Positions 34,299 through 44,809 of a DNA stretch of 53,822 nt are shown one piece after another. Every line of letters starts with the position of its first letter. The first letter of the stretch is position 1. The stretch is from contig PKTM01000009.1 of assembly GCA_002869145.1 (NCBI GenBank), forward strand, positions 7,614 to 61,435, in the 5' to 3' direction. Position numbers and translations under genes: made by a program. This DNA comes from Denitrovibrio sp. (GTDB lineage Bacteria > Chrysiogenota > Deferribacteres > Deferribacterales > Geovibrionaceae). The notes under the pieces are model-generated. The model made no database searches and had not been told where the DNA came from. It was given only the letters and a program-made list of their open reading frames with translations.

Positions 34299-34817
34299 AT
34301 GATAGATATACTAAGAAACAGACGCAGTGTCCGGCAGTTTACCGATCAGGCAATAGAGTTTAATAAGCTTGAGATATTAAAAGAAGCAATACTTTTAGCT
34401 CCGACATCCAGAAATATTGAGCCATGCGAATTCATTGTTGTACAAGATAAAGCAATGCTTAAAAAGCTTTCGACACTAAAGCCTCACGGCGCATCATTTC
34501 TGGCAGACTGCGACACAGCATTTGTCATCTGCGGTGATACGTCAAAGAGCGATGTTTGTGTTGAGGACTGCAGCATCGCCGCCATAATCCTTCAGCTCAC
34601 AGCTGAATCACTAGGTCTTGGAAGCTGCTGGGTTCAGGCCAGACTGAGAGACCACAGCGACAGTGTGAAATCTGAAAAATACATTAAAGAACTTTTTGAC
34701 CTGCCTGAACATATGCTTGCTCCATGCGTTATAGGGCTGGGTTATCCGGCAGCAAAAAAGGAACCTAAAACTAAAGAAGACCTAAAATTTCAAAAAATTC
34801 ATAAAGAGACCTTCTGA
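34299..34817 (+). CDS. Nitroreductase-family flavoprotein
   Basis: This 172-residue protein belongs to the nitroreductase family, FMN-dependent NAD(P)H oxidoreductases. The N-terminal RNRRSVRQF binds the FMN phosphate, followed by LLAPTSRNIEPCEF. The LTAESLGLGSCWVQ segment near the C-terminus and GLGYPAAKKEPK also fit the family. An AGGAGAG-type ribosome-binding site precedes the ATG. It lies 3 bases before the ferredoxin-type gene and so is probably coupled to it, suggesting that the iron-sulfur protein supplies or accepts electrons. The substrate is unknown. Confidence 0.88.
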   Translation: MIDILRNRRSVRQFTDQAIEFNKLEILKEAILLAPTSRNIEPCEFIVVQDKAMLKKLSTLKPHGASFLADCDTAFVICGDTSKSDVCVEDCSIAAIILQLTAESLGLGSCWVQARLRDHSDSVKSEKYIKELFDLPEHMLAPCVIGLGYPAAKKEPKTKEDLKFQKIHKETF

Positions 34818-34820
34818 TAA

Positions 34821-36098
34821 ATGGGTCACATAACAAACCCGCAAAAAGAATATCAGCTCCTCCAGAAAAAGCTGGATAGCTTTGCAACCGGAGCACCCGA
34901 TTCACCCGTATTCCAAAAAATTCTGGAGATAATATATTCACCAGAGGAAGCGTCTATCGCAAGGAAACTCCCCGGCATCCCTGCCCCTTTGTCTAAACTG
35001 GCCAAAAAACTGGACATTGACAAAGACGAGCTGGATGACAAGCTGACCAAGATGGCAAAACGCGGAGCACTACTTGACATGGAGATAAAGGGGGAAAAAC
35101 ATTTCTTTTTACCGCCTGTTGTAATTGGTTTTTTCGAATACACTTTTATGAGGGCAAGGGAAGATGTCCCGCTTAAAGAACTTGCTGAGCTGTTTCACAC
35201 TTACATGTATGAAACAGACTCTTTTGCCCGCTCAGTTTTTCAGAAAACCACTCAGATAGGCAGAACTCTCGTTAATGAAGAGTCACTCCCTGAAGAAACA
35301 GTAACAGAGATACTGGACTGGGAGCGTGCGGTGCATATAGTCGAATCTGCATCCAGTGTGTCAGTATCCGACTGTGCGTGCAGACATAAAATGCAGCATT
35401 TGGACAAAGCGTGCGATGCGCCTATGGCGGTCTGCCTGACACTGAACAACGCCGCAGAAATACTGGTTCGTAACGGACATGCTAAAAAAATAACCAACGA
35501 AGAAGGTTTAAAAATTTTAGATGATTGTAAAAAACTTGGACTGGTTCAAACAGGTGATAACGTCCAGAATGACATCTCTTATATTTGCAACTGCTGCTCA
35601 TGCTGCTGCGGAATGCTTCAGGCCATTAACACACACAACATAAACAACGCCATAGTCAGTTCTAACTGGATAATGGATGTTTTAACCAACTGCAAAGGCT
35701 GCGGTGTGTGTATATCAAAGTGCCCGGTGGATGCTATAGAGTTTTATACTGATGAAGATAATAGAAAACTTGCCAGATGCGTCACAGAAAAATGCATTGG
35801 GTGCGGTGTATGCATCAGCTCCTGCAAATTTGGTGCTATGGAGATGGTTCCCAGACAAAAAAGGGTCTTTACTCCCTATGACGTGATAGATAAAACCATT
35901 GCTATGGCCATTGAAAGAGGAAAGCTTACGGAGCTTGTCTTTGACGACCCTGAAAAAATCAGTCACAAAACAATATCCAGACTTATGTCGGCACTGGAAA
36001 AATCTCCCCCATATAAAGCGCTAATAGCAATTGAGCCTTTAAGGTCTCATTTTTTGAATAAACTGGTGAACTACGCAATAAAGAACACTGACATATAA
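34821..36098 (+). CDS. 4Fe-4S ferredoxin-type protein with winged-helix-like N-terminus
   Basis: This 425-residue cytoplasmic protein has an N-terminal region (about 50-100) that looks like a winged helix, with KLAKKLDIDKDELDDKLTKM. A cysteine-rich middle follows (SDCACRHKM, then CNCCSCCCG). A standard two-cluster ferredoxin domain comes next, CKGCGVCISKCPVDA and CIGCGVCISSCKFGA, which bind two [4Fe-4S] clusters. The middle cysteines may hold another cluster. Similar proteins occur in anaerobes, usually without a known reaction. It is probably an electron carrier for the upstream nitroreductase, or a redox-sensing protein. A terminator follows directly. Confidence 0.82.
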   Translation: MGHITNPQKEYQLLQKKLDSFATGAPDSPVFQKILEIIYSPEEASIARKLPGIPAPLSKLAKKLDIDKDELDDKLTKMAKRGALLDMEIKGEKHFFLPPVVIGFFEYTFMRAREDVPLKELAELFHTYMYETDSFARSVFQKTTQIGRTLVNEESLPEETVTEILDWERAVHIVESASSVSVSDCACRHKMQHLDKACDAPMAVCLTLNNAAEILVRNGHAKKITNEEGLKILDDCKKLGLVQTGDNVQNDISYICNCCSCCCGMLQAINTHNINNAIVSSNWIMDVLTNCKGCGVCISKCPVDAIEFYTDEDNRKLARCVTEKCIGCGVCISSCKFGAMEMVPRQKRVFTPYDVIDKTIAMAIERGKLTELVFDDPEKISHKTISRLMSALEKSPPYKALIAIEPLRSHFLNKLVNYAIKNTDI

Positions 36099-36132: not shown

Positions 36133-36534
36133 TCAGTTGTTGCATTTAAAACATGACCCTTGAAGCATCACTGCCACTCGAGCATACTTGCGACCAGTCT
36201 GTCTGGTAGCCTCAGCTATAAAAGGCTTGGTGTCAACATCCATCAGATCTTCTACATATCCGCATGTGGGGCATGTAACATGAACATGATCGCCGATATT
36301 AATCTCATACATAGGCTTGCGCCCGTGTACAGGAACCTCTGTGAGTATGTCTTCATCTACCAGGAGATGTATGTTTTTGTAGATGGTAGCCAAACTTACA
36401 GAAGAGTAAAAGTCCTTCACTCTTTCGTGAAGATCCTCAACACTTGCATGACCCATTTTCTTGATCTCCTCAAGAATAAAAATTCTCTGAGGTGTGACCT
36501 TTAGTTCTTTCTCTCTCAATATTTTGTCGTACAT
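36133..36534 (-). CDS. Fur-family regulator (PerR/Fur-like)
   Basis: This 133-residue repressor has a winged-helix DNA-binding domain (VTPQRIFILEEIKKMGHAS, and SLATIYKNIHLL) and a C-terminal dimerisation domain with two CxxC pairs (CPTCG and CFKCNN) that form the structural zinc site. The HVHVTC segment holds regulatory-metal ligands. The size and the two CxxC motifs fit PerR- or Fur-type sensors of iron/manganese or peroxide; I cannot decide between them. A GGAG site lies 6 bases before the ATG at 36534. It is divergent from the Mn/Fe-type ABC operon, which it probably helps to control. Confidence 0.88.
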   Translation of the reverse strand: MYDKILREKELKVTPQRIFILEEIKKMGHASVEDLHERVKDFYSSVSLATIYKNIHLLVDEDILTEVPVHGRKPMYEINIGDHVHVTCPTCGYVEDLMDVDTKPFIAEATRQTGRKYARVAVMLQGSCFKCNN

Positions 36535-36578
36535 AAGCCGCTCCAATAAAAATAACTATTGTTAATACTAAATCAACA

Positions 36579-36667: not shown

Positions 36668-36690
36668 AATCAATTTGATTAAGTTATAAT
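36668..36690 (+). promoter_or_regulatory. Operator-like palindrome over the metal-operon promoter
   Basis: AATCAA-T-TTGATT (36668-36680) is a perfect 13-base palindrome directly before a TATAAT -10 box at 36685-36690, about 50 bases from the binding-protein start. A repressor bound here would block the promoter. Candidates are the DtxR-like domain encoded in the operon and the divergent Fur-family protein. Confidence 0.5.
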
Positions 36691-36741
36691 AAACATAGGA
36701 TTGTTAAATATCAATATTTATATTTATATAAAAGGATAATA

Positions 36742-37629
36742 ATGTTTAACTATAAGGCTTTAATACTCACATGTCTGTTAATGACTGTCTCTGTTTGCTC
36801 TGCCGAAATAACCGTTGCTGTCTCCACAACACAGATATACAATTTAACTTATAATATAGCTGGAGACGATGCAAAAGTTTTAAGTATATTAGCTCCCGGG
36901 CAAGATCCTCACACATATCAGCCAGTCACAAAGGATATTGAGACTGTTCAAAATGCCGATGTTATCATCGAAAACGGTCTGCACCTGGAAGGTAAAAACT
37001 GGATGAAGACCCTTGCTGAAGATGCCGGCAAACCCCTTATTACAGCTACTGACGGCATTATACCGCTTATTATGGACAAAGACGGGACAAAGGTAAATGA
37101 CCCGCATGCTTGGTTCACCCCCAGAAATGCCGCTGTTTATGTGAATAATATTGCAAAGGCTCTTGTCAAACATGACCCTGACAATAGAGCCAGCTATATA
37201 TCAAGAGCAAAGCTTCTGCTTGCCAGCTTAAAATCACTCGACGGCTGGATTCGCTCGGAAGTATCTGTTATCCCCCCTGAAAAGCGTGTACTGGTTACAA
37301 ATCACGATGCATTTCAGTATTTTGCAACAGAGTATGGATTTATCAATACCGCTCCCATAGGCTGTTCCACAGGAAGCGAAGTAGGCGGAGGGGTTACACC
37401 TCAAAGGCGTGAAATGGTTGTGAACTCAATCAGAGAGATGAACGTCAGATCAATATTTTTTGAAACAACCATAAATCCCAAACTGATCAGAGAGATTGCA
37501 AAAGATGCCGGAATCAGCATTGGCGGTTCACTCTATTCAGATTCAATGGGTGATTCCGGAACCCCCGGAGAAACATACATCGGCATGATGAGAGAGAATG
37601 TGATAAAGATAGTAAGAGGGCTGAAATAA
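36742..37629 (+). CDS. Metal ABC transporter substrate-binding protein (Mn/Fe type)
   Basis: This 295-residue protein has a signal peptide (about 1-20) and the cluster A-I fold of metal-binding proteins. The likely metal ligands are His in GQDPHTYQP, His in NDPHAWFTP, Glu in FFETTINP and Asp in YSDSMG. A His-His-Glu-Asp set is typical of manganese or iron binders such as PsaA and MntC, whereas zinc-specific ZnuA has a third His and often a His-rich loop, which is absent here. The gene heads an operon with an ATPase and a permease. Its TAA overlaps the next start by one base (TAATG). Confidence 0.88.
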   Translation: MFNYKALILTCLLMTVSVCSAEITVAVSTTQIYNLTYNIAGDDAKVLSILAPGQDPHTYQPVTKDIETVQNADVIIENGLHLEGKNWMKTLAEDAGKPLITATDGIIPLIMDKDGTKVNDPHAWFTPRNAAVYVNNIAKALVKHDPDNRASYISRAKLLLASLKSLDGWIRSEVSVIPPEKRVLVTNHDAFQYFATEYGFINTAPIGCSTGSEVGGGVTPQRREMVVNSIREMNVRSIFFETTINPKLIREIAKDAGISIGGSLYSDSMGDSGTPGETYIGMMRENVIKIVRGLK

Positions 37630-38111
37630 TGCGTTTTATCTTAACCGCCGCCGTATGGGCAGTCATACTCGCACTTGTCAGCTTTGTCTTTTCTATCAGA
37701 GGCATGGAGTCTGGGCCTATTGACAAAGAGGTAAAAGAGAAACACGCTGAGGTCTCATTTGAGATAACTGCAACATTCTCTGTAGAGGACGACCCTTTTG
37801 CGCTGAACATAGGCGACAAAAAATCTGCTTTTGAGCTGGTACTAGACGGACAAACTGTCTTTAGTGCTGAAAAAGGTATAAACGACAGGGTAAGCTTCAC
37901 TACTGAAAGTTTTGAACTTTCAACAGGAAAGCATGAGCTTTTTGTAAAAGCAAACCCTTCAGATACAAGAATATCACAGGCTGTGCGTGTGCAGGTGCTT
38001 TTATCAGGAAATCCCATCAGCAGCGAAACTTACTGGTTTAATCCGGGACAGGCTGTGAATGCGGCACATGTTTTTGAAGTAACAGAAAAAGGTAGTCAAA
38101 ATGAGCACTGA
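37629..38111 (+). CDS. Unknown membrane-anchored extracytoplasmic protein of a metal ABC operon
   Basis: I do not recognise this 160-residue protein. It has one N-terminal hydrophobic helix (about 3-23, anchor or uncleaved signal) and a beta-rich extracytoplasmic part with no cysteine and few histidines. The strands around EVSFEITATFSVEDD and GKHELFVKANP suggest an immunoglobulin-like sandwich. The gene overlaps both neighbours (1 base with the binding protein, 11 with the ATPase), so it belongs to the transporter operon. Possible jobs are docking the binding protein or handling metal before transport; this is inference. Confidence 0.75.
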   Translation: MRFILTAAVWAVILALVSFVFSIRGMESGPIDKEVKEKHAEVSFEITATFSVEDDPFALNIGDKKSAFELVLDGQTVFSAEKGINDRVSFTTESFELSTGKHELFVKANPSDTRISQAVRVQVLLSGNPISSETYWFNPGQAVNAAHVFEVTEKGSQNEH

Positions 38112-38847
38112 TTATGCAATACAGGTAAGAAACCTCACGGTGAGCTACGGGCCTAAGCCGGCACTGCTTGACGTGAGTTTTGTAATAAACACAGGGGAAC
38201 TTGTTGGGATAATAGGCCCAAACGGAGCCGGAAAATCCACGCTGATGAAGGCTATACTTGGCTTTGTAAAGCGTGACATCGGCGAAGTTTACATCTTTGG
38301 CAAACCCGTGGAACAGACAAGAGGGTTAGTGGCGTATGTACCTCAGCGTGGAACAGTGGACTGGGACTACCCTGTAACGGTTCACGATGTCGCCATGATG
38401 GGCAGATACGGTCATCTGAAGTGGTGGCAGAACGAGTCCAAAGAGGATCACGAGATTGTTGATGAATGCCTGAAGATGGTTCGGATGTCAGAATTCAGAG
38501 ACAGACAGATAGGCCAGCTCTCCGGTGGACAGCAGCAGAGGGTTTTTATGGCAAGGGCTCTTGCTCAGGGTGCAAAGATACTTCTGCTTGACGAACCTTT
38601 CGCAGGAGTTGATGCCGCTACGGAAAACGCTATTCTGGACGTTTTAACAGAAGCTAAAAAGGCAGGAATAACGCTTGTTGTGGTTCACCATGATTTGGCT
38701 ACGGCCTCGGAGTATTTCGAAAAACTGCTTCTGATCAAACAAAGACTGTATGCAGCAGGCCCCCCTTCCCTTGTTTTCCGTCAGGAACTTCTGACAGAGG
38801 TATACGAAGGGAAGCTAAAGGTCTTCACCGACCTTATAAAGGAATAG
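38101..38847 (+). CDS. Metal ABC transporter ATP-binding protein
   Basis: This 248-residue protein is an ABC ATPase of the manganese/zinc/iron chelate class. It has Walker A GPNGAGKST, the Q-loop in YVPQRGTVDWDYP (a pattern typical of metal transporter ATPases), the signature LSGGQQQR, Walker B ILLLDEPFAGVD and the H-loop His in VVVHHD. It starts within the preceding small membrane gene and ends 2 bases before the permease gene, so the operon is tightly coupled. It powers import of metal by the permease. Confidence 0.93.
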   Translation: MSTDYAIQVRNLTVSYGPKPALLDVSFVINTGELVGIIGPNGAGKSTLMKAILGFVKRDIGEVYIFGKPVEQTRGLVAYVPQRGTVDWDYPVTVHDVAMMGRYGHLKWWQNESKEDHEIVDECLKMVRMSEFRDRQIGQLSGGQQQRVFMARALAQGAKILLLDEPFAGVDAATENAILDVLTEAKKAGITLVVVHHDLATASEYFEKLLLIKQRLYAAGPPSLVFRQELLTEVYEGKLKVFTDLIKE

Positions 38848-38849
38848 AT

Positions 38850-40340
38850 ATGGACGTGTTATTTACACTATTAATAGAACCGATTACAAAGATGTATTTA
38901 CTGAAAGCACTCATAGGCGGCAGTATTGTTGCGGTTGTGTGCGCTGTGGCGGGGTGCCTTGTCATTCTTCAGCGGATGGCGTTTCTGGGTGATGCCCTTT
39001 CCCACGCTATGATAGCCGGTGTTGGGGCTGGATATCTTTTCATGAAGGTCTTTTTCGGTATAGAAGCTGCGGCAGGAGCCATGCTTATTGGTTCGCTCAT
39101 AGCTGCCATGCTGACAGTTTTTATGATTGGTTTTGTGGCGAAAGTCTCCCGTATCAAAGAGGACACCTCCATAGGAATAATGTACACCGGGATATTTGCA
39201 GCAGGTGTTGTGCTTGTGTCGGTTTTCAATAAATACATCCACATAGACATAGTCCACTTCATTATGGGTGACATCTTAGGCATATCCGATACTGATATGA
39301 TCGTGTCATCAATAGTCTCCGCTGTGGTACTTTCCGTAATAATACTCTTTTTCAGATATTTCAAACTAACAAGCTTTGACCCTGTAATGGCTGCCTCCAT
39401 AGGAATACCAGTTTTGTTTTTCAAATACCTATTCACTGGATGCGTTTCACTGGTGGTTGTCTCAGCTGTAAACATGGTCGGTGTTATACTTGTTGTGGGG
39501 CTCCTCATCACACCTGCGGCAACGGCATATCTTCTCACAGACAGACTGGAAAAGATGATGGCGCTTGCTGCGGTATTCGGATTCACCAGCATTTTAGGCG
39601 GACTATACCTTAGCCTGTGGATGAACTCTGCTGGCGGTGGAGCTATTATGCTTTTTTCCACACTGCAGTTTCTCATAGTGCTTATATTTGCACCCAGATA
39701 CGGCATGCTTGCGGATAAGCTCCGTGCTAAGAAAGCTGTGCCGCAACAGATAACAGAAGATATCATAGGCAGCGTTTTCAAGGGCGGCGGTAAACTGAGC
39801 ATGAACGAGCTGACCAGTTATGTCGAGACAACAAAAAAGACCTTTGCCAACGCACTTACCAGCCTTTCAGAAGACGGACTTCTTAATGTTGCTGCAAACA
39901 ATGTAGCTCTCACCGAAAAAGGGAAAGCGGAAGCTCTGAGACTTAAAAAAGCGCACAGAGTTTGGGAAACATATCTGCATCATATGGGCGTGCCGGAAGA
40001 GGAACTACACGAGCAGGCTCATATTCTTGAGCACTACAACGACGCCGAGGCTATTTCATACATACACGAAAAGATGGGATTCCCACAGACAGACCCACAT
40101 GGCGCTGTGATACCGGATATATACGCTGACGGTTCATTTTGTCTGACAAATATGTTTGGCTTTTCCAAAAGCGATGTACAGGTGGTCACCATAAAAACCG
40201 ACAAAGGCATCAAGCCGGGTGACCGTGTAAAGGTAACCCAGACAGAAGACAGCTTTGAGCTTGAGCTGAATGGCCAGATCATAGAGCTTAACGATGCCGA
40301 AGTGGCATCACTTACAGTAAGACTGCCTGATAGTCTTTGA
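38850..40340 (+). CDS. Metal ABC permease fused to a DtxR-type repressor
   Basis: This 496-residue protein joins two functions. Residues 1-280 are an ABC-3 family metal permease with 8-9 transmembrane helices and the typical DALSHAMIAGVG segment. Residues about 290-496 form a DtxR-type metal-dependent regulator. That part has a winged helix (KLSMNELTSYV to TEKGKAEALRL), a dimerisation/metal-binding segment HEQAHILEH in which His replaces the usual Cys, the DPHGAVIPD landmark and a C-terminal FeoA/SH3-like domain (GIKPGDRVKVTQ). The layout recalls chlamydial YtgCR, where the repressor is released from the permease by cleavage. Here the repressor may act from the membrane or after cleavage. Confidence 0.9.
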   Translation: MDVLFTLLIEPITKMYLLKALIGGSIVAVVCAVAGCLVILQRMAFLGDALSHAMIAGVGAGYLFMKVFFGIEAAAGAMLIGSLIAAMLTVFMIGFVAKVSRIKEDTSIGIMYTGIFAAGVVLVSVFNKYIHIDIVHFIMGDILGISDTDMIVSSIVSAVVLSVIILFFRYFKLTSFDPVMAASIGIPVLFFKYLFTGCVSLVVVSAVNMVGVILVVGLLITPAATAYLLTDRLEKMMALAAVFGFTSILGGLYLSLWMNSAGGGAIMLFSTLQFLIVLIFAPRYGMLADKLRAKKAVPQQITEDIIGSVFKGGGKLSMNELTSYVETTKKTFANALTSLSEDGLLNVAANNVALTEKGKAEALRLKKAHRVWETYLHHMGVPEEELHEQAHILEHYNDAEAISYIHEKMGFPQTDPHGAVIPDIYADGSFCLTNMFGFSKSDVQVVTIKTDKGIKPGDRVKVTQTEDSFELELNGQIIELNDAEVASLTVRLPDSL

Positions 40341-40386
40341 TTTCCCCTGCTGTTTCTGTTATTTTCAAAATCTTTACGGAGGCCAG

Positions 40387-40887
40387 ATGAGATACCTGAT
40401 AATAATGCTGACAACTTTAATGCTTTTCGGATGCGGAACAGATTTTTACCTGAACAAAGAACCAATGATGCAGAAAATTATAATCTCTCAGATGGACAAG
40501 TCTCTGACTCTTTCAGCAAAATCACTTATTGAAGACAATATAATAAGAATTCGTCTGGAATCAGAATTTTACCGTGGTAATGCAGAGATAATATATGAGA
40601 ACGGTTATTATCATATGACTTACACTAACCTTCCGCTTGATAGCGAGAAGACAGAAACGCTAAAAGGAGACCTTTACGCTGCGTTTTTTGCCGGAGATTT
40701 TCCATACAGCTCAGATGATAAAATGTTCGGTGATGTCATAATGAAAAACGGAATCAAGCTGGTAAAAGATACAGACGGCTACCTTCTTTACAGAATAACC
40801 TATAACGGAACTGAAATGACTCTCTACAACATTGTAAAAGAGTATAATATCTCAATCTACTCTGAAAAAAGCTTCCGTATAAAATAA
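40387..40887 (+). CDS. Unknown lipoprotein
   Basis: I do not recognise this 166-residue protein. It has a lipoprotein signal peptide with the lipobox LMLFGC (Cys16), so it should be anchored in a membrane facing the periplasm. The mature part is mixed alpha/beta and rich in charged residues, with no cysteine-based or catalytic motif visible. It lies 46 bases after the permease-repressor gene in the same direction with its own GGAGG site, so it may be the last gene of the metal operon. A role in metal uptake would be a guess from position only. Confidence 0.75.
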   Translation: MRYLIIMLTTLMLFGCGTDFYLNKEPMMQKIIISQMDKSLTLSAKSLIEDNIIRIRLESEFYRGNAEIIYENGYYHMTYTNLPLDSEKTETLKGDLYAAFFAGDFPYSSDDKMFGDVIMKNGIKLVKDTDGYLLYRITYNGTEMTLYNIVKEYNISIYSEKSFRIK

Positions 40888-41063: not shown

Positions 41064-42176
41064 ATGAAGAAACTGTTACTTCTCGCCGTGATCTCGGCAT
41101 TTCTGGTGTTCACTGGATGCACCAATCAACCAAAAGAAGAAGCTAAACCTGAACCAGCTGCAAAAGCTGAAACAGGCAAAGAAGTCAAAGCCGCATTTAT
41201 ATATGTTGGACCTGTGGGCGATGCAGGCTGGACATATGCACACGACATGGGACGCAAAGTTATGGCGGATCTGCCTTTTGTCACAGAAACTAACTACATA
41301 GAATCTGTACCGGAAGGCGCTGAGTCCACAAGACTTATCACAAGCCTTGCACAGAAAGGCTACAATCTCATTTTTACCACTAGCTTCGGCTATATGGACC
41401 CAACGCTTGAGGTTGCAAACAAATTCCCGGAAGTGACATTTATGCACTGCTCCGGATACAAAACAGCGGAAAACATGGGCACATATTTCGGCCGTATGTA
41501 CGAGCCAAGATACCTTGCAGGTGTTGTTGCTGGTAAAATGACAAAATCTAATATAATAGGATATGTTGCAGCTTTTCCTATTCCTGAAGTTATAAGAGGA
41601 ATCAATGCTTTCACACTTGGAGCACGCTCAGTAAACCCTGAAGCTGTTGTTAAAGTTGTCTGGACTCAGACATGGTTTGACCCAGCTAAAGAGAGCGATG
41701 CTGCTGAAGCTGTTCTTGATGTAGGCGCTGATGTTATAACAATGCATCAGGATACACCTGCTCCTCTTCAGGCTGCTGAAAAGCGTGGCGCACTTGCAAT
41801 AGGCTACAACTCAGTAATGTCTGAGCAGGTTCCAGGCGCATGGCTTACAGCTCCTGTTTGGAACTGGGAAGCTGTATATACAAAAATAGCAGAAGAAGTT
41901 CACAACGGTACATGGGAGCCAAGCCAGATATGGTGGGGGATGGAAGAAGGTCTTGTTGACATAGCTCCTCTTAGCGACCTTGTTCCGGAAGACGTGAAAG
42001 CTGTTGTTAACGAGAAGAAAGCTCAGATAATGTCAGGCGAGCTGAAAGTTTTCGCCGGCGAACTGAAAGATAACAAAGGAAACATTGCAGTTGCTGCCGG
42101 AACTGAGATGAGTGACGGCGAAATGCTCGGCATGAACTTCTTTGTAGAAGGTGTTCAAGGCGACACCGGAAACTAG
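41064..42176 (+). CDS. BMP-family nucleoside-binding lipoprotein
   Basis: This 370-residue lipoprotein (lipobox around LVFTGC, Cys about 19) belongs to the BMP/PnrA family, periplasmic proteins that bind purine nucleosides. Landmarks are AFIYVGPVGDAGWTYAHD at the start of the mature domain, the GYNLIFTTSFGYMD strand, NMGTYFGRMYEPRYLAG and the VITMHQDTPAPLQAAEKRG segment. It provides substrate to the ATPase and two permeases downstream. A strong terminator hairpin follows, which probably makes it the most abundant product of the operon. TAG is its stop codon. Confidence 0.92.
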   Translation: MKKLLLLAVISAFLVFTGCTNQPKEEAKPEPAAKAETGKEVKAAFIYVGPVGDAGWTYAHDMGRKVMADLPFVTETNYIESVPEGAESTRLITSLAQKGYNLIFTTSFGYMDPTLEVANKFPEVTFMHCSGYKTAENMGTYFGRMYEPRYLAGVVAGKMTKSNIIGYVAAFPIPEVIRGINAFTLGARSVNPEAVVKVVWTQTWFDPAKESDAAEAVLDVGADVITMHQDTPAPLQAAEKRGALAIGYNSVMSEQVPGAWLTAPVWNWEAVYTKIAEEVHNGTWEPSQIWWGMEEGLVDIAPLSDLVPEDVKAVVNEKKAQIMSGELKVFAGELKDNKGNIAVAAGTEMSDGEMLGMNFFVEGVQGDTGN

Positions 42177-42200
42177 ACCAAACTATACAAAATACAAAAA

Positions 42201-42235
42201 GCCCCCCACAGAAATGCGGGGGGCATATTTTTTTA
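42201..42235 (+). terminator. Attenuating terminator after the binding-protein gene
   Basis: GCCCCCC (42201-42207) pairs with GGGGGGC (42218-42224), followed by a T-rich tract. It ends part of the transcripts, so the binding protein is made in excess over the ATPase and permeases. Confidence 0.8.
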
Positions 42236-42245
42236 AGAGCTAATA

Positions 42246-43754
42246 TTGAAACCTGTACTTGAAATCAAAAAAGTAATCAAAACCTTCCCCGGCGTGAAAG
42301 CTTTGGATAATGTATCACTTAGTATATACGAAGGTGAAATACATACCTTGCTTGGCGAAAACGGAGCCGGAAAAAGTACTCTTATGAATGTACTGAATGG
42401 TCTTTACCAGCCAGACAGCGGCGAGATATTCATCGACGGCAAAGAGAATATGTTCCTCTCACCAAAAGACTCCATAAAAGCGGGAATCGGCATGGTGCAT
42501 CAGCACTTCATGCTGGTGAGAAACCATAATGTACTGGAAAATATCCTCCTTTCTGTCGAAGGGCTGAAATCTGTTCTGAATAAAAAAGCCATCAGAAAAC
42601 AGGTGGAAGAGATACTGCAAAGGTTTGACATGGATATCAATCTTGATGAACCAATGTGGAAACTCTCTATCGGTGCACAGCAGTGGGTAGAGCTTATCAA
42701 ACTGCTGATAAGAGACTGCCGCATACTTATACTTGACGAACCAACAGCTGTTTTGACCCCTCAGGAATCTGAGAAACTTTTCGATTTCTTAGGCAGACTG
42801 CGCTCCGAAGGTAAATCGATAATTTTTATATCTCATAAAATGCGCGAAGTTATGGCTCTCTCCGACAGGGTAACTATACTGAAAAAAGGGACAACCGTGA
42901 AAGAACTCACCAAAGGCAACTTTGATGAAGCACTTCTTGCAAAGCTTATGATAGGCGGCGACGACATCCCTAAGTGGGAGAGACGTGAAAAAAGCATCGG
43001 CGAAGACATACTGACCATATCCAACCTTAGTGTTGATAACGACAAAGGGCTCGCAGATCTGCATGAGTTTTCTATGGAACTAAAAAAAGGCGAGATACTC
43101 GGCGTGGCAGGTGTGGCAGGAAACGGTCAGAAAGCTCTTGCAGAGGTTATCACAGGGCTGAAACTCCCCAAAGACGGCTATATAATGCTCGGCGACTGCG
43201 ATATTACCAAAGCATGCTGCAGAAGGTCTATGATAGCCGGTATAGCACATGTACCCGAAGATAGAAAAAGTATGGGTATTGCCCCTGAAATGTCTGTTGA
43301 CGATAATCTCATACTTAAAAGCTACAAAGACCCAAAGTTTCGTAAAGGCTTTATACAAAACAGAAAAACTATTAAGAAAAACGCTGAAAGGCTTATACAC
43401 GCCTTTGATATAAAAGCTGGTCCACCAGGAAATCCGGTAAGACTGCTTTCCGGAGGAAACATACAGAAAGTTATCATAGCAAGAGAGATGTCTCTGGAGC
43501 CTATTGTGCTGGTAGCACTTTACCCCACAAGAGGACTGGATATAGGCTCTGCTGAATATGTCCATAAGGTCATAGTAGAGGCCAGAGCAAAAGATATGAG
43601 CACTATTCTCATCTCAGAGGATTTGGACGAACTGCTGAAACTTTCAGACAGAATAGCTGTTATGTTCAGAGGGACGCTGACTGGCATAGTCGACCCTGAA
43701 AACACTACCAGAGAAGCTATAGGGTTGCTTATGAGTGGGGAGATGACCGGATGA
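42246..43754 (+). CDS. Nucleoside ABC transporter ATP-binding protein, two ABC domains
   Basis: This 502-residue protein carries two tandem ABC ATPase domains, as in RbsA/YufO-type transporters. The first has Walker A GENGAGKST and Walker B ILILDEPTAVLTP. The second has GVAGNGQKALAEV as a degenerate Walker A and LSGGNIQKVI as signature. The first-domain signature LSIGAQQWVELIK is also altered, typical of this group. The start appears to be TTG at 42246; no ATG fits. It overlaps the first permease gene by 4 bases (ATGA). It energises uptake of nucleosides bound by the BMP lipoprotein. Confidence 0.92.
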   Translation: MKPVLEIKKVIKTFPGVKALDNVSLSIYEGEIHTLLGENGAGKSTLMNVLNGLYQPDSGEIFIDGKENMFLSPKDSIKAGIGMVHQHFMLVRNHNVLENILLSVEGLKSVLNKKAIRKQVEEILQRFDMDINLDEPMWKLSIGAQQWVELIKLLIRDCRILILDEPTAVLTPQESEKLFDFLGRLRSEGKSIIFISHKMREVMALSDRVTILKKGTTVKELTKGNFDEALLAKLMIGGDDIPKWERREKSIGEDILTISNLSVDNDKGLADLHEFSMELKKGEILGVAGVAGNGQKALAEVITGLKLPKDGYIMLGDCDITKACCRRSMIAGIAHVPEDRKSMGIAPEMSVDDNLILKSYKDPKFRKGFIQNRKTIKKNAERLIHAFDIKAGPPGNPVRLLSGGNIQKVIIAREMSLEPIVLVALYPTRGLDIGSAEYVHKVIVEARAKDMSTILISEDLDELLKLSDRIAVMFRGTLTGIVDPENTTREAIGLLMSGEMTG

Positions 43755-44809
43755 TAAAGTTTGAAAAACGTAAAAGTACATCGAAACTTTTCAAAACCTC
43801 AGCTCCATTTCTAGCTGTTCTGCTTGCTCTTATCACAGCAGGTTTTATACTTCTTTTTGCAGGCGTGAACCCCATTAAGGCTTATTCAGGTATGCTTCAG
43901 GAATCACTCGGCTCAGCATTTGGAATCAGCGAAACACTTCTTAAGTCAACACCGCTAATCTTGACAGGGCTTGGCGTTTCACTCGCCTTCCGCATGAAAC
44001 TATGGAATATTGGTGCTGATGGACAGCTTCATATTGGTGCTATCGGTGCCACATGGGTTGCACTGTACTCAGGGCTGCAAGGCGTATTTATGCTTCCCGC
44101 TATGTTCTTAGCCTCTTTTATAATGGGCGGACTATGGGCGGGCGTTGCGGGTGTTTTAAAAGCAAAAATCAGGGTAAATGAAATCATAGTAACTCTTCTC
44201 ATGAACTATATAGCAATATCAATTGTATCTTTTCTGGTGTATGGCCCATGGAAAGACCCCAATGGACACAACTTTCCATTAACAGCTCAGTTTGCTGACT
44301 TTGCAAGGCTCACAAGCTTTTTCAACACAAGGCTCAACACAGGTTTTTTGTTAGCCATAGTTCTTGTTTTTATAATGTATATTTTGATGGAAAAAACCCT
44401 CTGGGGTTATGAGATAAAAGTTATTGGCAACAATCAGAACGCTGCTAAATATGCAGGGATAAAAATTGACCGCTCCATTATAGGCGTACTTTTTCTAAGC
44501 GGAGCTTTAGCTGGTGTTGCAGGGTTTTCTGAGGTGGCAGGGGTACAGTTCCGGCTTCAGGAAGGTGTATCAAGCGGATACGGCTACACGGCTATCATTG
44601 TAGCCTGGCTGGCCGGCAGAAGCGCCATAGGTGTTCTTGTGGTTTCTATCATAATGAGCATAATACTTGTGGGTGGTGACAGCCTTCAGATACTAATGCA
44701 GCTGCCTGTTGCGTTTGTAAACCTATTTCAGGGACTTATTCTCTTTTTCATACTGGCATCCGAATTTTTTATAGCCAACAAGCCTGTGCTATTAAGGAGT
44801 AAACAATGA
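43751..44809 (+). CDS. Nucleoside ABC transporter permease 1 (YufP-like)
   Basis: This 352-residue integral membrane protein has about ten hydrophobic helices and is the first of two permease subunits, as in the B. subtilis YufP/YufQ and S. mutans RnsC/RnsD nucleoside systems. Typical segments are AFRMKLWNIGADGQLHIGAI, VNEIIVTLLMNYIAISIVSF and the GALAGVAGFSEVAGVQ loop. It overlaps the ATPase gene, and its TGA overlaps the ATG of a short 45-codon ORF. In most related operons the second permease follows directly. Confidence 0.92.
   Translation: MIKFEKRKSTSKLFKTSAPFLAVLLALITAGFILLFAGVNPIKAYSGMLQESLGSAFGISETLLKSTPLILTGLGVSLAFRMKLWNIGADGQLHIGAIGATWVALYSGLQGVFMLPAMFLASFIMGGLWAGVAGVLKAKIRVNEIIVTLLMNYIAISIVSFLVYGPWKDPNGHNFPLTAQFADFARLTSFFNTRLNTGFLLAIVLVFIMYILMEKTLWGYEIKVIGNNQNAAKYAGIKIDRSIIGVLFLSGALAGVAGFSEVAGVQFRLQEGVSSGYGYTAIIVAWLAGRSAIGVLVVSIIMSIILVGGDSLQILMQLPVAFVNLFQGLILFFILASEFFIANKPVLLRSKQ

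Follow-up and report, generated by a model that had tools for sequence, protein, structure and literature searches.

The window, a 53,822-nucleotide stretch of a Denitrovibrio sp. contig, carries a four-gene metal ABC importer operon at 36742-40340, which encodes a substrate-binding protein (SBP), a 160-aa protein, an ATPase, and a permease fused to a DtxR-derived tail. An ORF check returned the coordinates that the original prediction had given for these genes. The features of the locus are as follows:

36133-36546, minus strand: Fur-family regulator, PerR-like and divergent from the operon (PF01475; PDB alignments to PerR)
36668-36680, no strand: palindrome AATCAATTTGATT, named in the original prediction; chance-level and not conserved
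36685-36719, plus strand: putative TATAAT -10-like hexamer and downstream AAATATCAATA element, read by inspection, without statistics
36742-37629, plus strand: ZnuA/TroA-type SBP with a signal peptide (PF01297, E=2.7e-77; PDB matches YfeA, PsaA, TroA, and MntC)
37629-38111, plus strand: 160-aa protein with an N-terminal TM helix, a predicted beta-sandwich (AF2), and the motif TFxxExDPFA; no Pfam match above cut-off
38101-38847, plus strand: ABC ATPase, nearest to the ATPases of Mn or Mn/Fe importers (PF00005; NCBIfam)
38850-40340, plus strand: permease-DtxR fusion, 496 aa (Pfam, AF2)
38895-39692, plus strand: ABC-3 permease core of the fusion, residues 16-281, PsaC-like, with D48 and H52 invariant (Pfam, fold match)
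39693-39752, plus strand: short linker, residues 282-301 (AF2; helix 286-311 extends into the winged helix)
39753-39923, plus strand: winged-helix (wHTH) segment, residues 302-358, without a PF01325 match (sequence comparisons)
39924-40118, plus strand: DtxR metal-binding/dimerisation domain, residues 359-423 (PF02742; ligand columns across 77 fusions)
40119-40337, plus strand: SH3/FeoA-like domain, residues 424-496 (weak FeoA match; AF2 strands; DtxR/IdeR fold matches)
40387-40887, plus strand: 166-aa lipoprotein-like protein, present in 8/8 genomes of the two genera g1 and g4

The order SBP, 160-aa protein, ATPase, fusion, and lipoprotein, together with the divergent Fur-family gene (present in 8/8), is kept in eight genomes from the two genera, which indicates that the arrangement is not due to chance. 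Adjoining the Fur-family gene, at 34299-36098, are a nitroreductase-like gene and then a gene for a 425-aa protein with two 4Fe-4S motifs; homologues of both lie near the operon in the congeners G001 and G002. On the other side, window positions 41064-44809 encode a BMP-type lipoprotein, followed by an ATPase and a permease resembling a nucleoside-type ABC importer, and homologues of the BMP-type lipoprotein and its ATPase lie 3' of the metal operon in all eight genomes.

The aligned metal ligands of the SBP are H57, H122, H188, and D267, that is, His-His-His-Asp. A His-His-Glu-Asp set had been predicted, and a Mn/Fe assignment had been based on it; as the third ligand is His188, which aligns with a Glu of YfeA, neither the set nor the assignment drawn from it holds. 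The window ligands are TroA-like, the TroA set being His-His-His-Asp. The third ligand is a histidine in every aligned SBP from a fusion operon, and a search for its covariation with sensor residue 391 of the fusion encountered no variation in the SBP ligand. For the ATPase, the top NCBIfam models are Mn and Mn/Fe, both under the model cut-offs, and a search of the host genome for an Nramp importer gave just one sub-threshold match. Judged by sequence, the operon product would be a high-affinity divalent-metal ABC importer, probably for Mn2+ or Fe2+, with Zn2+ as a possible substrate.

Two extra proteins had been described as unknown, and rightly so, namely the 160-aa and the 166-aa lipoprotein-like proteins. 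Homologues of the former, often with a His-containing tail, sit between SBP and ATPase in Thermodesulfobacteriota, a Nitrospirota MAG, Planctomycetota, and Kiritimatiellota, and since this family accompanies the fusion in several phyla, it is probably an importer accessory. A fold search of its AF2 model against the PDB yielded no confident match (best, MmpS5, E=0.025). The 166-aa protein, sought at the other fusion loci, was found in the window's family only.

Consistent with the predicted permease carrying a DtxR-like C-terminal third in one ORF, the fusion matches ABC-3 at residues 16-280 (E=1.2e-60) and Fe_dep_repr_C at residues 355-423 (E=1e-21), and its AF2 model (mean pLDDT 85; 34-sequence alignment) has a PsaC-like fold in the membrane part and a DtxR/IdeR-like fold, including SH3-like strands, in the tail. 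In the model, TM helix 262-280 is followed by helix 286-311, with no long flexible linker. The predicted metal-site segment HEQAHILEH is present, and the metal-domain ligands are H369, E373, H387, H391, E394, and H395, with D304 in the first wHTH helix as a further ligand position. H369, E373, and H395 do not vary across 77 fusions, and H387, E394, and D304 hardly vary. Fusion length varies: shorter fusions without the SH3/FeoA-like domain occur, whereas those at L157:1732-4047 and L158 are unusually long (∼770 aa). In more distant relatives of the same order (L079:6518-8753, L080:4086-6319, and L078:7238-8386), C-terminal permease extensions align to the wHTH and stop before the metal domain; the extended permeases of L079 and L080 are tandem pairs. 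Such extensions would suit an appendage that has no regulatory effect and serves for folding, stability, or metal buffering, but the near-invariance of the metal ligands across many phyla argues against this, and we consider it very improbable.

The tail had been called a complete DtxR-type regulator. While a wHTH fold, a metal domain, and SH3-like strands are all predicted, the PF01325 match and the standalone-type recognition-helix signature are missing, and comparisons with standalone DtxR proteins from fusion-bearing genomes showed much the same for most other fusions. The PF02742 metal domain was present in all of the standalones and fusions compared, whereas PF01325 matched 31/31 standalones and, weakly (best E 0.0017), 4/34 fusions; it matched 0/8 proteins at E<=0.1 among the window fusion and its seven orthologues, and 0/2 Chlamydiota fusions. 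The ratio of recognition to metal identity was 0.88 in 31 standalones (95% bootstrap 0.80-0.97) and 0.38 in 33 fusions (0.34-0.43), with 0.56 in the window family; when metal-domain identity was matched (0.6-0.7), that of the recognition helix was 0.54 in standalones versus 0.22 in fusions. Against an HMM of the standalone wHTH, held-out standalones scored 41.9 bits or more, fusions no more than 28.1, and the window family no more than 17.1, without overlap. Moreover, a P-A-S-V-T/S-type recognition helix, by a loose pattern composed after inspection of the standalones, occurs in 28/31 standalones, 0/33 fusions, and 0/8 window-family proteins; the separation by PF01325 does not depend on this pattern. 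The standalones were gathered by a PF02742 search and a DtxR-like query, so that strongly atypical ones may be under-represented in these comparisons.

In most comparisons, the wHTH segment is the fastest-diverging part of the fusion; wherever dS was measurable, a dN/dS of about 0.06-0.11 shows purifying selection on it, and the mean charge of the recognition region is +2.9 in fused versus +0.8 in standalone proteins. A metal-domain tree, with the wHTH left out, separates fused from standalone proteins by one branch (SH-aLRT 98); with 71 columns it is poorly resolved inside, and, its root not being known, it allows but does not prove a single origin of the fusion. By these measures, the fused modules keep the metal site and not the DtxR DNA-reading helix signature. 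The same applies in a Chlamydiaceae genome (G343, reached via the MOMP family), where the single PF02742 protein is a permease fusion (L206) that retains the metal ligands, has no PF01325 match, scores 4.3 bits against the standalone-wHTH HMM, and by sequence belongs to the class of the other fusions. Its identical domain order and its status as sole PF02742 match make the originally drawn comparison with YtgCR an apt one. Since the wHTH of this fusion is aberrant and YtgR is nevertheless reported to bind DNA, loss of the canonical helix is not proof of lost DNA binding.

The proposed survey across phyla was carried out as a search of genome contigs seeded by the window fusion, and a fusion was present at 71 of the best 80 loci, which, being the top matches of such a search, are not a census. 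Among these best 80 loci, fusions occur in Thermodesulfobacteriota, Nitrospirota, Planctomycetota, Kiritimatiellota, Verrucomicrobiota, Bacteroidota, Ignavibacteriota, Chlorobiota, Gemmatimonadota, Latescibacterota, Actinomycetota, and one Gammaproteobacteria MAG. The genomes are mostly MAGs, in which binning errors may misplace single rows but do not create joined ORFs, and some contigs end near the fusion gene, so that missing neighbours in such rows mean little. The YtgCR design is present in a free-living bacterium, as had been stated, but its layout is of a known kind, permease-DtxR fusions outside Chlamydia having been reported in 11 phyla, according to PMC5599777, citing Thompson 2012. 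Within the best 80 loci, a single permease is present at 58/71 fusion loci, and 8/13 two-permease loci carry the metal module on both permeases; some two-permease operons have one module only. At 17/71 fusion loci of this set, the operon contains or adjoins a gene for a standalone DtxR, and a standalone is found somewhere in 35/40 fusion-bearing genomes, with a fragment in one more. At L094, the standalone DtxR and the SBP are separated by a second DtxR-related ORF (1038-2096, 352 aa), and at L102 and other Saprospiraceae loci neither an SBP nor an ATPase homologue was detected near the fused permease. A search for plasmid-borne fusions saw none; three records covered at least 80% of the query, and the top one was rejected as a read-through of two adjacent permease genes.

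In the host genome (2.88 Mb, 99.4% complete), a genome-wide search found the fusion to be the sole PF02742 match, and no standalone DtxR was found in the window's two genera, so the fusion could still be a DtxR-type regulator there. Four genomes of the sister genera g2 and g3 have no fusion and one or two standalone DtxR-family proteins each; at two loci, judged visually from where the ORFs start, no recognisable metal importer adjoins the standalone gene. As the only DtxR-family protein of its genome, with a wHTH fold predicted intact, metal ligands present, and a basic recognition region, the fusion might act as a YtgCR-like repressor, with its C-terminal part cleaved or tethered, dimerising with metal, and repressing its own operon. 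For this there is a precedent in Chlamydia, where YtgR is reported (PMC5599777, PMC7755916) to show metal-dependent promoter binding, repression, and cleavage from the permease.

The promoter region, however, does not favour such a repressor. The palindrome AATCAATTTGATT does exist, once in the host genome, and is unique to it among the family genomes searched; it is missing from G001 and G002, and when the 15% GC spacer is shuffled, 29% of the shuffled sequences contain a perfect 6-1-6 repeat. It was accordingly rejected as a DtxR operator, and a conserved palindromic operator was not found at the operon promoter. An element similar to AAATATCAATA, with the core TCAA, lies upstream of the operon in the other genomes (by inspection, without statistics), and a Fur-like TGATA-N5-TATCA is located upstream in some g4 genomes; neither element has an assigned regulator. 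The nearest PDB matches of the divergent Fur-family protein include PerR, to which a His, a His, and an Asp104-type position align, with Glu at the Asp85 position (PerR numbering), and this protein is perhaps the regulator of the operon. Together with the absent PF01325 match and standalone-type recognition helix, the separate standalone DtxR at 17 of the relatives' 71 loci, and the short helical linker in the AF2 model, the lack of conservation of the palindrome makes the repressor reading rather unlikely, and the repression step of the predicted coupling to metal transport gained no support.

A dual role, in which the module would bind DNA in addition to gating the importer, with DNA binding kept only where a standalone DtxR is absent (the window family and Chlamydiaceae), would agree with the finding that the window genome and the Chlamydiaceae genome have a single PF02742 match each, as opposed to the standalones in 35-36/40 other fusion genomes. 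The wHTH of the window family does not, however, resemble that of DtxR more closely than do the wHTHs of fusions that coexist with a standalone, and we regard this dual role as improbable, more so than the repressor.

We lean, with modest confidence, towards the DtxR-derived tail being a metal-sensing gate on the importer. The single permease would form a homodimer, as in PsaC, so that each importer would have a pair of C-terminal modules of DtxR origin facing the cytoplasm. When cytosolic metal is sufficient, it would be bound by the metal/dimerisation domains, which would lock together and, through the short helical linker, restrain the permease, resulting in feedback shut-off of uptake. Transcription would be controlled elsewhere: the regulator here is perhaps the divergent PerR-like Fur protein, and many other phyla would use a separate standalone DtxR. 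The dimer within the importer, the metal-driven gating, the PerR control, and the identity of the metal are our inferences. Several lines of evidence favour the gate. Two modules per importer would fit the prevalence of single permeases and the two-permease loci at which both permeases carry a module (8 of 13), and the standalones at 17 fusion loci fit a separate repressor. Furthermore, the metal ligands are near-invariant while the recognition helix diverges, the metal-domain tree is split, and the modelled linker is short and helical; the transinhibition of MetNI and ModABC offers a precedent. Against the gate stand, above all, the reported DNA binding and cleavage of YtgR, the wHTH of the examined Chlamydiaceae fusion being equally aberrant, and also the lack of a standalone DtxR match in the window's two genera, the purifying selection on the wHTH, the more basic fused recognition region, and the two-permease operons with only one module.

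More broadly, the fused modules may constitute a separate, widespread class of metal gates on ABC-3 importers, which have lost DNA reading, coexist with standalone DtxR, and include YtgCR; we put the chances of this as even. If it is true, the main role of Chlamydia YtgCR may need re-examination. The literature raises the prospect that all such fusions follow the cleavage-repressor model of Chlamydia; the sequence evidence here points elsewhere, and what is newly offered is the mechanism, through the lost DNA-reading signature, and not the fusion layout. On this reading, free-living bacteria related to Denitrovibrio and Desulfofustis would use a recycled repressor domain for direct feedback on metal import, and, if so, a permease-borne, DtxR-derived mode would join the known transinhibition of ABC importers.

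Among known systems, Chlamydia YtgCR (CT069, ytgABCD operon) shares with the window fusion the ABC-3 permease, wHTH, and DtxR metal domain, and the Chlamydiaceae fusion is likewise the only PF02742 match in its genome, with a wHTH equally unlike standalone DtxR. It differs in having a Glu at the position of H391 and, per the Chlamydia papers, a second permease, YtgD, where the window has one; the SH3-like domain, the 160-aa protein, and the divergent PerR-like gene are window features. DtxR, MntR, and IdeR have the metal-binding/dimerisation domain, ligand pattern, and predicted fold (including SH3) of the window tail, which is, in contrast, membrane-fused, with no PF01325 match and a divergent recognition helix. 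The SBP, ATPase, and permease of PsaBCA-, TroABCD-, and YfeABCD-type importers are homologous to those of the window, which differs by the DtxR-derived module on the permease C-terminus and, with respect to PsaA and YfeA, by its His-His-His-Asp SBP ligands. Finally, MetNI and ModABC are ABC importers subject to substrate transinhibition via added regulatory domains (PMC10710835); their likeness to the window lies in the proposed logic, whereby cytosolic substrate sensing halts uptake, whereas the window module is DtxR-derived and borne on the permease, and its gating is our proposal.
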